A DNA stretch of 64,000 bases, taken from positions 1,755,492-1,819,491 of the forward strand of contig SDAL01000001.1 in assembly GCA_004153385.1 (NCBI GenBank), read 5' to 3'. The notes beneath the pieces are model-generated. The model made no database searches. It was not told the DNA's origin and was given only the letters and a program-made list of their open reading frames with translations. Made by a program: the position numbers and the translations under genes. Each line of letters opens with the position of its first letter. Position 1 is the first letter of the stretch. This stretch comes from Paracoccaceae bacterium. GTDB taxonomy: Bacteria; Pseudomonadota; Alphaproteobacteria; Rhodobacterales; Rhodobacteraceae. Below, piece by piece: positions 3,188 to 7,561 of the stretch.

Positions 3188-3457
3188 CTAGAAACCCTCA
3201 CCGAAACGGTCGGCCACCAGATCGCGCAAAGCGTCGGCCAAGGCCTCTGCCTGGGCGCCCGATGTCGTCACTTCGATCGATGTTCCCCGCGAGGCGCCCA
3301 ACATCAACAACCCCATGATGGAATCGCCGGACACCTGCATGCCGTCTTTGGCCACCTCGGCCCGCGCATCGAATTTCTCGACCTGCTCGACGAATTTCGC
3401 AGAAGCGCGCGCATGCAGGCCCTTCTCATTAATTATCTCAAGCACCCGATGCGTCAT
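3188..3457 (-). CDS. ptsH: HPr phosphocarrier protein
   Basis: An 89-residue HPr. The active-site His15 lies in GLHARAS, and Ser46, the HPr kinase target, lies in SGDSIMGLLML. Both are at the canonical positions. It accepts phosphate from enzyme I (not in the window) and passes it to the EIIA encoded immediately upstream. No sugar permease components are present locally, so the system is probably regulatory, as usual in alphaproteobacteria. It starts one base after the EIIA stop codon, so translation is probably coupled. Confidence 0.95.
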   Translation of the reverse strand: MTHRVLEIINEKGLHARASAKFVEQVEKFDARAEVAKDGMQVSGDSIMGLLMLGASRGTSIEVTTSGAQAEALADALRDLVADRFGEGF

Positions 3458-3859
3458 TCATCCTCCACGCGTTCCATAAGATGAATAACTATTGATGTAT
3501 TTTCGACCCGCATCAAGGGCTGCTTCTACAGCAGCATGAACGGACAGTTTACGCGACTTGGCCAGTTTGATCAGCAAAGGCAGGTTTGCGCCGTAAATAA
3601 TCTCGCGCTCGCAATCCTCGCAGGCTTGCAGACTCAGGTTAGAAGGCGAGGCACCGAACATATCGGTCACCACCACAACCCCGTCACCGATATCGACAGA
3701 ATCGGCAGCTGCACGGATTTCTGTCTGCTTCTCGGCGCGATTATGGCCTTCTTCGATGGTAATCGCCTGAATGCCATGTTGGGGCCCGACAACATGCTCC
3801 ACCGCCGCGAGATATTCGCGTGCAAGTCCACCATGAGCCACGATCACGATCCCGATCAA
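3458..3859 (-). CDS. PTS mannose-type EIIA regulatory protein
   Basis: A 133-residue EIIA of the mannose family. The phosphorylatable His9 lies in [10 protein letters not shown], and [16 protein letters not shown] is the conserved core. It lacks fused IIB, IIC or IID domains, and none are nearby. It most likely signals phosphorylation state, with HPr and HPr kinase, rather than moving sugar. Its first four bases overlap the end of rapZ (ATGA), and its stop abuts ptsH. Confidence 0.92.
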
Positions 3860-4821
3860 GCGCTGCTTCCCGTTTCCGCCTGAGGCAGGGCTGCGCCCTG
3901 ACGTTCCAATTCTCTATGACGCTTAGACACGTGCCACCCTGTTTCTGCAAGTGCACTAACAACAGATTCTGTCATTGCGACAGATCTGTGCTTTCCGCCG
4001 GTGCACCCGAAGCCGACAGAAAGATGTGTTTTACCCTCTTCAACATGGGCAGGCAGGGTAAAAAATAAAAGCGCCAAGACATGATGGAGGAATTCATCAA
4101 AGCGTGAGTCCGCAGCAACGTAGGCCGCCACCTCCGGATCACGCCCGTCTTTGGGGCGCAATTGCGCCACCCAGTGCGGATTGCTCAGGAAGCGGCAGTC
4201 AAACATCACATCCAGCCCCCGCGGCACCCCGCGTTTATAACTGAAACTATGAACAGACACCGACAGGCTCGACACGGCCCCCAGATCAAAGATGCGTACG
4301 ATCTCTGACCGGCAGTCGTGTACGGTCATTGCTGAACTGTCGATCAGGATATCGGCGCGCGCGCGAATTGGCTCCAACAACTCGACCTCGCGCAAGATCC
4401 CCTCAATGGGGGCATCATCGGGGGCGAGCGGATGACGGCGGCGGGTTTCCGAATAGCGCCGTTCCAGCACGTCGGGACGCGCATCCATATAAAGCACCTC
4501 AAGCCTGATCCGAGGTTCGCGTGTCAGGCGGTCGATCAACTCGATCAAGCGGATCGCGCTGAATTCGCGGTTGCGCACATCCACACCCAACGCGATCGGC
4601 TCCAGCACCGGCCCGTCAAGCACACGGGGCACCATCGAAAGCGGCAGATTATCGATGGTTTCATATCCCAGATCTTCCAAAGCCGCGATCGCGGTCGAGC
4701 GGCCTGCGCCGGACGGTCCGGTGATCAATACCACGCGCTGGCTGCGCCCCACATCTGGTTGGGTTTGCGCTGCGGCCTCGTTCACCACGAGAGTGTCTGG
4801 CTGGCGTTCAAGCGGGCTCAT
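3856..4821 (-). CDS. rapZ: RapZ-type nucleotide-binding protein (RNase adapter family)
   Basis: A 321-residue P-loop protein of the YvcJ/RapZ family. The N-terminal Walker A is GPSGAGRST (residues 35-43; Arg replaces the usual Lys, a variant I believe is common in alphaproteobacteria). GYETIDNLP follows and [11 protein letters not shown] lies in the C-terminal domain. In enterobacteria RapZ targets the small RNA GlmZ for decay; in alphaproteobacteria the role is unsettled. Its place between hprK and the EIIA gene supports a link to PTS signalling. Both ends overlap neighbours by 4 nt, showing a tightly coupled operon. Confidence 0.93.
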
Positions 4822-5249
4822 ACGATCCTCCCACCTTTAAGATATTGCAAGACTGCGTATTCAAGATGCCCATGTTGCACCTGCAGTACAAGAGGCAGCG
4901 ACACACCTGCGATAGTTTGGTGGCGCATCGGGGGCAGGCGTTCCTCCTCTGTTCGATCAAGATCGACCACAAGCCCAACGCGTGCCCCCCCCTTCAGCGC
5001 ACTGGCCCGCAAGATGCCGATCTGACGTGCCTCTATCTGGCCGGCGATTGCGGCCGGAGAGTGCGCGAAAAGGTTTCCCTTTTCGACAACAAGGTCCACA
5101 CGATCATCGGCCACAAGATGCGCGCCCAATGCCATCAGCCCAAGCGCAAGCGCAGATTTCCCTGCGCCGGAGCGACCAAGGATCAGTACCGCATTTTGAG
5201 AATCCAACGCCACGCAACTGGCGTGAATATTCATGCACTCCGGGCCCAT
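4818..5249 (-). CDS. hprK: HPr kinase/phosphatase, short C-terminal-domain form
   Basis: A 143-residue protein corresponding only to the catalytic C-terminal half of Gram-positive HprK, which is the normal alphaproteobacterial form. Walker [11 protein letters not shown] (about residues 25-34) and [12 protein letters not shown] are present. It phosphorylates and dephosphorylates Ser46 of HPr. It is the first gene of the operon hprK-rapZ-EIIA-ptsH. In most relatives the histidine kinase gene chvG lies immediately upstream; here about 700 bp without it separates hprK from pckA. Confidence 0.93.
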
Positions 5250-5782
5250 TTATCCGTTATCCATTTCCAAAACGCTGCAGCTTGTGGGTACAACGGACCC
5301 GTATCACTGCCTGAAGACAACCACACTACCTTAAGGTGACACGGGTTTAGATCGCGCAAAGTTTCACAGGCATTTCATGTTTTCTGACACACACGCGCTG
5401 TTTGCACCGCAATGATCCGGCGTGGGCGCCATCCTCAATCGCCCGACCCGCTGCCGTTGAGCGCCGCGTATGGAACATCGACCTCAAAATCCAAAACCTG
5501 TCTGATATATTTACCAAATTCGATCGCGGGCGGCACGTCACCATTGCCGATCAAAGCCTGTCCCGCCCGTTTCTGATACAACAAAGCGTAGGTCGAGTGG
5601 GTGGTTTGGATCAGTGGCATGTGGCCTTGCCATCAGATCAGATGATCGCTTTTTCGACGCTGTGGCACACGCGGGGCACCACAGCACCGAATCAGGAGCA
5701 TATGGTCAGGTGCCCCAAACGGTGGGCACGCGAATAGAACCTGCAAGATCGCGACATCATGGCGCGGTCGCACAGGCCCTGC
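5250..5782. other. Intergenic region without a recognisable gene (expected site of chvG/chvI)
   Basis: Short open frames exist on both strands (for example minus 5435-5620, 61 codons), but none matches a family I recognise, and no histidine-kinase or response-regulator motif can be read. The region presumably holds the promoters of hprK (minus) and pckA (plus). In relatives the chvI-chvG two-component pair sits here. Confidence 0.6.
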
Positions 5783-5820
5783 TAGCGCTAAATCCGCGCT
5801 GATATCGCTAACGGTTAGCG
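5783..5820. promoter_or_regulatory. Paired palindromic operator-like sites upstream of pckA
   Basis: The 15-bp perfect palindrome CGCTAACGGTTAGCG at 5806-5820 has a 7-bp arm on each side of one base. A second palindrome, TAGCGCTA, lies at 5783-5790. The shared GCTAA/TTAGC arms look like operators of a LacI-family regulator with a central CG. The known LacI-type regulators of pckA in alphaproteobacteria (PckR/CceR) are plausible binders. That assignment is inference; the palindromes are seen directly. Confidence 0.5.
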
Positions 5821-5962
5821 CACCCTGTGTTCCCACGAAGTTTTGGCGTGTTATACGGTGTCTACCCGGCGCCTTTCTGGAGCCGGCGACGCGTCCTCCA
5901 AGGCCCGGAGGAAACGGGAAGAATCCATTGAACAGCCGCACGACGGCATTCGGGAGCTACAG

Positions 5963-7561
5963 ATGATCATCGGACACGTGAACCCGGCGCAGCGCTTGGA
6001 AGATCAAGGCATTTCTGATCTGGGAAACGTCTATTACAACCTGATCGAGCCTGCGCTGGTCGAAGAGGCGCTAAAACGTAATGAGGGGACGCTTGGCAAA
6101 GGCGGTGCCTTTTATTGCACCACCGGCAAATTCACCGGACGCTCGCCCAAGGACAAGTTCGTCGTTCGCACTCCCGAAGTTGAAGATACGATCTGGTGGG
6201 ACAACAACGCCCCGATGGAGGCCGACAAGTTCGACCAACTTTATGCCGATATGATCGCGCATATGAAAGGCCGTGATTATTTCGTGCAAGATCTGTTTGG
6301 TGGCGCCGACCCCGAACACCGTCTGGATGTGCGCGTGATCTCGGAACTGGCGTGGCACAACCTGTTTATCCGCACCATGCTGCGCCGCCCCGAACGTGCC
6401 GAGCTGGACAGCTTCGTGCCGGAATTCACGGTCATCAACTGCCCCGAATTCAAGGCAGATCCTGCCCGCCACGGCTGCCGCACAGACACCGTGATTGCGT
6501 TGAATTTCGAGAAAAAGCTGATCCTCATCGCCAACACCCAATATGCCGGCGAGAACAAGAAGGGTGTGTTCAGCCTGCTCAATTATATCCTGCCCGGTAA
6601 TGGCATCATGCCGATGCACTGCTCTGCCAACCACGCAATCGACAATCCCCAAGACAGCGCCGTGTTTTTCGGTCTGTCGGGGACCGGCAAGACAACCCTT
6701 TCAGCCAGCCCTTCGCGCACGCTGATCGGAGATGACGAACATGGCTGGTCCGACAACGGCATCTTCAATTTCGAAGGTGGGTGCTATGCCAAGACGATCA
6801 ACCTCGACCCCAAGCACGAGCCTGAAATCTACGCCACGACGTCCAAGTTCGGGACCGTGGTCGAGAATATGGTCTATGACCCCGAAACGCTGGAGCTGGA
6901 TTTCGAGGATAACTCGATTACCGACAATATGCGCTGCGCCTATCCGCTCCACTATATCTCGAACGCATCCGAAGATTCGCTCGGGGGCAGCCCCAAACAT
7001 GTGATCATGCTAACCTGCGATGCCTATGGGGTTTTGCCACCCATTGCACGGCTGACACCGGCGCAAGCGATGTATCACTTCCTGTCCGGCTTCACCTCCA
7101 AAACACCAGGCACCGAGGTTGGCGTACTGGAGCCGATCCCGACCTTCTCAACCTGCTTCGGTGCGCCATTCATGCCACGCCGCCCCGAGGTGTATGGCAA
7201 GCTGCTGGCCGACAAGATCGCAAAAAACGGGGCATCGTGCTGGTTGGTCAACACCGGCTGGACGGGCGGAAAATTCGGCGAAGGCTCGCGGATGCCGATC
7301 AAGGCGACCCGTGCGCTGCTTGATGCGGCGCTCGACGGATCGCTTGATGCAGTCCAGTTCCGCCGCGACCCGAACTTCGGCTTCGATGTGCCGGTGCTGG
7401 TGGATGGCGTGGACCCGCAACTGCTCAGCCCGCGCGACACCTGGGCCGACCCCGAGGCCTATGACGCGCAGGCCGCGAAGCTGGTCCAGATGTTTTCCGA
7501 CAATTTCGAGCAGTATGTCCCCTATATCGACGACGAGGTCAAAGCCGTCGCGATCGGCTGA
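5963..7561 (+). CDS. pckA: Phosphoenolpyruvate carboxykinase (ATP)
   Basis: A 532-residue gluconeogenic enzyme converting oxaloacetate and ATP to phosphoenolpyruvate, ADP and CO2. It contains the kinase-1a loop GLSGTGKTT (about residues 237-245), LIGDDEHGW with the metal-binding Asp, and [10 protein letters not shown] near the N-terminus. The frame is open back to 5843, but family homology begins at MIIGHVNP, so I chose the ATG at 5963 (family length 530-540). Palindromic operator-like sites lie 140-180 bp upstream and a terminator follows. Adjacency to hprK/ptsH is conserved in alphaproteobacteria. Confidence 0.97.

Follow-up and report, generated by a model that had tools for sequence, protein, structure and literature searches.

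Loss of the ChvG–ChvI genes between hprK and pckA in a Paracoccaceae genome and in other lineages of the Rhodobacteraceae

The two-component system named ChvGI, BvrRS or ExoS–ChvI is treated as a conserved envelope regulator of the Alphaproteobacteria, on which virulence or symbiosis depends in several hosts. Here we describe a stretch of 64,000 nucleotides (the window) from a Paracoccaceae bacterium (assembly GCA_004153385.1, contig SDAL01000001.1, positions 1,755,492 to 1,819,491), in which the two genes, chvG and chvI, are missing between hprK and pckA. In Brucella, hprK and the genes of the phosphotransferase system (PTS) are co-transcribed with bvrRS, whereas the pckA–bvrR junction is not (PMC2937029), and in Caulobacter the chvI promoter, which serves chvIG-hprK, is weaker without ChvI (PMC9731502). 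Regulators of the ChvI type act on pckA in Agrobacterium (cited in PMC3687685) and in Brucella (PMC9491525).

In the window, the start of hprK (position 5249, minus strand) and the ATG of pckA (position 5963, plus strand) are separated by 713 bp (5250–5962). A first-pass annotation, made from the letters of the window, had proposed that chvG and chvI are missing from this interval and that the flanks are intact. Both statements are borne out, as neither gene is detectable by tblastn, nhmmer or Smith–Waterman alignment, and hprK, rapZ, the EIIA gene, ptsH and pckA all encode the expected Pfam domains. All 15 other genomes of the genus hold in this slot a ChvI of about 234 amino acids (aa) and a ChvG of about 581 aa, which are 88–100% and 71–100% identical, respectively, to the proteins of genome G004; the chvI–pckA intergenic region of these congeners measures 343–366 bp, and the distance from hprK to pckA in Thioclava indica is about 2.8 kb. 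The annotation had spoken of Roseobacter relatives, but the genome belongs to the same genus code as T. indica and lies outside Roseobacter in its strict sense; the locus of G002, of the same genus code, matches that of T. indica DT23-4 without a difference across 8,171 bases.

Comparison of the ChvG and ChvI proteins of G004 with positions 4800–6100 by tblastn gave chance matches only, with best expectation values (E) of 0.40 and 0.059. A nucleotide hidden Markov model was built from the hprK–pckA region of 15 congeners and G031 and run in nhmmer with the filters off; it matches only 5776–6021, that is, the pckA leader and start (E 5.3e-44). When 5250–5780 was aligned by Smith–Waterman, on both strands, with the regions carrying chvGI in G011, G008 and G004, none of the six scores surpassed the highest obtained in 40 shuffles; five were nevertheless larger than the mean of the shuffles, at most by 1.9 standard deviations. 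Between the hprK start and the leader nothing resembling chvGI was found by blastn, tblastn, nhmmer or Smith–Waterman alignment. The small excess over the shuffle mean, like the partial relics in other genomes described below, is what one could expect if chvGI had decayed past recognition in the interval instead of being deleted cleanly and replaced by DNA of foreign or new origin. However, a decayed pair was not visible in any alignment tried, and the adjoining pckA leader is still 80–82% identical to G008 and G011 over 5800–6000, so that decay of the interval would need to have been far faster. We regard decay as quite improbable and prefer the deletion.

The unmatched DNA, about 525 bp at 5250–5775, replaces chvG, chvI and the chvI-proximal part of the intergenic region. 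Apart from its pckA-proximal end, it has no match in its own genome or in 40 other relatives. Searches against plasmids returned short chance matches only, those against phages nothing beyond short chance stretches, and Rfam two sub-threshold matches. An open reading frame of 61 aa (5435–5620, minus strand) shows a sub-threshold resemblance to Hydant_A_N, the hydantoinase A N-terminal domain (E 0.017), which we take as chance because it has no support from tblastn, relatives or NCBIfam. The interval also contains, at 5402–5412, the sole TTGC-N3-GCAA of the window, a pattern given as the ChvI motif of Caulobacter (PMC9731502); by our estimate, chance would produce about one copy per 64 kb.

Whether the pair had been lost or had moved was left open in the first-pass annotation, and the whole-genome searches decide for loss. 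The best match in a six-frame search of the whole assembly with ChvI is 37% identical (E 4.3e-35) and represents a paralogue: congeners carry matches of this level on top of their own ChvI, for which E is about 1e-132 or below. With ChvG, the best six-frame match in the assembly covers only residues 317–558, the kinase part (E 4.6e-24). No Stimulus_sens_1 match, indicative of the ChvG-type N-terminal sensor part, was found in this genome (G000), but 13 of the 15 congeners also fail to reach the E cut-off for this domain, and the weight therefore rests on the ChvG search. An OmpR regulator of the ChvI type with high identity, as found beside pckA, is absent from the locus and from the assembly, and among the 16 genomes of the genus G000 is the sole one without ChvI. 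It has 29 ChvI-like matches compared with 23–36 in ten congeners; no compensating expansion is visible. For this assembly, these searches show a cell without ChvG–ChvI envelope-stress signalling. The assembly (3.77 Mb) is in 9 contigs, which would give some room for a pair present elsewhere or missing merely by a fault of assembly. On the other hand, it is given as 99.99% complete, the locus lies within a contig of 2.07 Mb, the six-frame searches lead to paralogues only, and the junction contains the 525 bp of unmatched DNA, which argues against a plain assembly collapse. A moved or misassembled pair is thus very improbable.

The absence is not the normal state of the clade, a possibility that the annotation had raised. 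In addition to the 15 congeners, ChvI was found in 358 of 394 genomes of the family (36 without), and in 320 of the 347 genomes with completeness of at least 90% and contamination of at most 5%. This census, in which nearly all genomes were of different genera, accepted ChvI at E ≤ 1e-60 and scored the best candidates per genome. The figure of 36 is a maximum, since in G023 the contig ends at the locus and chvG can still be recognized, and it may include genomes with a divergent ChvI. Three records under other names, L158 (Exiguobacterium profundum), L174 (Enemella evansiae) and L221 (Nocardioides marinus), carry pckA loci of the Rhodobacteraceae type and look mislabelled or contaminated.

The time and recurrence of the loss were read from a 116-row PckA tree. 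Of 131 loci at the start, 12 were excluded for want of a long PckA match and three were removed as duplicates of other rows, two of them shown to be identical; three loci that were unclear were left out of the count. The window groups with G008 and G011 in a starred trio (99), and because both of these sisters have chvGI the loss is placed on the window's own branch. Across the tree the label of presence or absence changes nine times, with eight of the changes forced by starred branches. The rows without the pair are the window, the Paracoccus clade, G169, G206, Haematobacter, G133, HIMB11, G148 and G068. The all-absent Paracoccus clade comprises 11 rows including G062 (99, starred); the statement on Paracoccus rests on all ten of its loci among the named loci (the best 80 of 588) and on G062, placed within the clade by the tree and without ChvI in the census. 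What tells against this reading is that the species of the window is represented by one genome and that the tree is unrooted and "quick", and could not alone distinguish loss from gain. We read the changes as losses because presence is near-universal in the family and beyond, which gives about nine losses in the sampled Rhodobacteraceae. The absence is thus not peculiar to this genome, and its recurrence suggests that ChvGI is dispensable in the family under some conditions.

Inspection of the other loci shows several forms of the loss. In the ten named Paracoccus loci, as in G062, G068, G148, G169 and G206, pckA and hprK face apart as they do in the window and chvGI was not found between them; on the PckA tree these losses are separate from that of the window, and the gaps measure 160–501 bp compared with 713 bp here. 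In HIMB11/G215 (L253:3380-4330, same as L188), residues 1 to about 99 of chvI are fused out of frame to the end of chvG, a partial deletion that is an intermediate of loss. In G133 (L257:5671-5973) only the DNA-binding end of ChvI is left, in an open frame of 101 aa just before hprK. Both genomes resemble the window in that chvGI is disabled and hprK and pckA are kept, and differ from it in that pieces of the pair persist. The same persistence distinguishes G196, an 80%-complete genome with chvG pieces interrupted by stop codons, in a comparison confined to the state of the pair. Haematobacter missouriensis has, like the window, no chvG found between pckA and hprK, but it keeps an orphan ChvI-like gene there (L178:3952-5001), whose divergent product (47% identity) has both the receiver and the DNA-binding domain of a regulator.

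On the pckA side, the restriction of the nhmmer match to 5776–6021 indicates that about 190 bp of the pckA leader was kept (5776–5962, plus strand). It includes two operator-like elements on the plus strand. The first, TGCTAGCGCTAAA at 5780–5792, aligns in the nhmmer alignment with the conserved GCGCTAAA of the congeners, and the second, TGATATCGCTAACGGTTAGCGC at 5800–5821, aligns with their conserved CGCTAAC. Of the 80 named loci, 69 carry an exact copy of GCGCTAA or TTAGCGC in the 300 bp upstream of pckA, compared with 2.4% of 1,600 random windows. GapR, of the LacI family, is a predicted regulator of pckA in Rhodobacteraceae (PMC4052901). The twin element is probably the site of a LacI-family regulator, which may be of the GapR kind, an assignment that goes by the predicted regulon and not by the letters of the motif. 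With the operator-like element kept, pckA may retain another regulator. We also considered a ChvI box in the lost half of the intergenic region, where GCGAATCA repeats are present in many congeners; the sisters G008 and G011 do not have them, and we make no claim.

The genes on the other side form a contiguous set on the minus strand with overlapping or abutting ends: hprK (4818–5249; HPr kinase of the C-terminal type, Pfam Hpr_kinase_C, 52.4 bits), rapZ (3856–4821; RapZ domains), the gene for a mannose-type EIIA of the PTS (3458–3859; EIIA-man) and ptsH for HPr (3188–3457; PTS-HPr). All four are intact, as is the divergent pckA (5963–7561, plus strand; PEPCK_ATP, 703 bits). A scan of the contigs with an HprK query gave no match. 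HprK is 61–67% identical to that of the eight relatives compared, while PckA is 90% identical to those of G008 and G011, the two nearest genomes. Faster evolution of HprK after the loss was considered and dropped: G000 and G011 share 65% of HprK and 90% of PckA, and G004 and G011 share 65% and 85%. HprK is the fast protein in every pair compared, and so no claim is made on its rate.

These observations lead us to the following account, which we consider likely as a whole. A deletion on the terminal branch of the species took out chvI and chvG and, with them, the chvI-proximal half of the pckA–chvI intergenic region. Comparison with the congeners shows that it begins at the hprK start and stops just short of the operator-like elements of pckA, with the unmatched DNA at the join. 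Metabolic control of pckA should persist through the kept leader and operator-like elements. In relatives chvI-chvG stand at the head of the hprK-rapZ-EIIA-ptsH operon; here hprK is its first gene, and the operon would be transcribed from a promoter within 5250–5775, because the only upstream neighbor, pckA, is divergent and the operon would receive no read-through. Expression of HPr kinase and the PTS would thereby be uncoupled from autoregulation by ChvI. Judged from the sequence, co-transcription from a chvI promoter would not apply to this locus, as chvIG and the chvI-proximal part are absent. The local rewiring suggested in the first-pass annotation is therefore supported by the layout for the hprK–PTS operon, which lost its head, and less so for pckA, where the conserved upstream element survives.

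Some results count against parts of this account. The exact heptamer is found upstream of pckA in 12 of 19 chvGI-less loci (in 6 of the ten named Paracoccus loci) compared with 85 of 94 chvGI-bearing loci after removal of duplicates, and it is significantly rarer in the former (P 0.007 by Fisher's test with duplicates included), which leaves some room for changed pckA control. The GapR motif is described in its source as a 20-bp palindrome, whereas the congeners have two direct GCGCTAA elements. Finally, a scan of 5200–6000 for promoters of the E. coli type found none, although this is a weak test for this group.

The reasons for the loss can be considered in the light of motility. Insertions in chvG make Phaeobacter inhibens non-motile (PMC11974857), and it is possible that ChvGI is kept largely for flagellar motility and that its loss follows the loss of swimming. 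The flagellar marker FliG is absent from 20 of the 36 ChvI-less genomes compared with 34 of the 358 ChvI-bearing ones. In high-quality genomes the counts are 14 of 27 and 25 of 320 (P = 3.6e-8 by Fisher's test), where these are raw counts ignoring kinship, FliG is a single marker, and 6 of the 14 are inferred from totals. Nevertheless, fliG is kept in the window's genome (C1:375817-376149, L269) and in 15 other ChvI-less genomes, which tells against loss of swimming as a full account, and we consider this explanation rather doubtful. Alternatively, the loss could have been selected by phages that require surface structures controlled by ChvGI. This notion derives from a single phage in a single host, with a mechanism unknown to its authors, and we find it unlikely. 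We tentatively speculate that ChvG–ChvI in this family is a repeatedly excised cassette and not a core regulator. Its excision would follow changed selection on the cell surface, either as swimming is lost or as the cell escapes phages that depend on structures under ChvGI control, and would leave behind the PTS operon and the operator of pckA; in species such as this one, a new promoter would since have arisen for the PTS operon.

The system itself is well known, and its repeated loss at a locus with the flanks kept appears to be new, as none of the papers listed in full-text searches on ChvI in Rhodobacterales, Roseobacter and Paracoccus, on ChvI and gene loss, and on ChvG in Rhodobacteraceae reports such losses in its title or opening abstract. 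The window's species lost the pair on its own branch and its near sisters kept it, and together with the other separate losses this provides matched natural knock-outs, which make testable the targets of ChvGI in this family, the operon's tie to the PTS and the causes of dispensability.

In comparison with the described bvrRS locus of Brucella and the ChvI–ExoS locus of Sinorhizobium, the window differs in lacking chvI, chvG and about half of the pckA–chvI intergenic region, and is like them in all that surrounds the gap, with a divergent pckA on one side and hprK followed in one direction by the genes for EIIA and HPr on the other.
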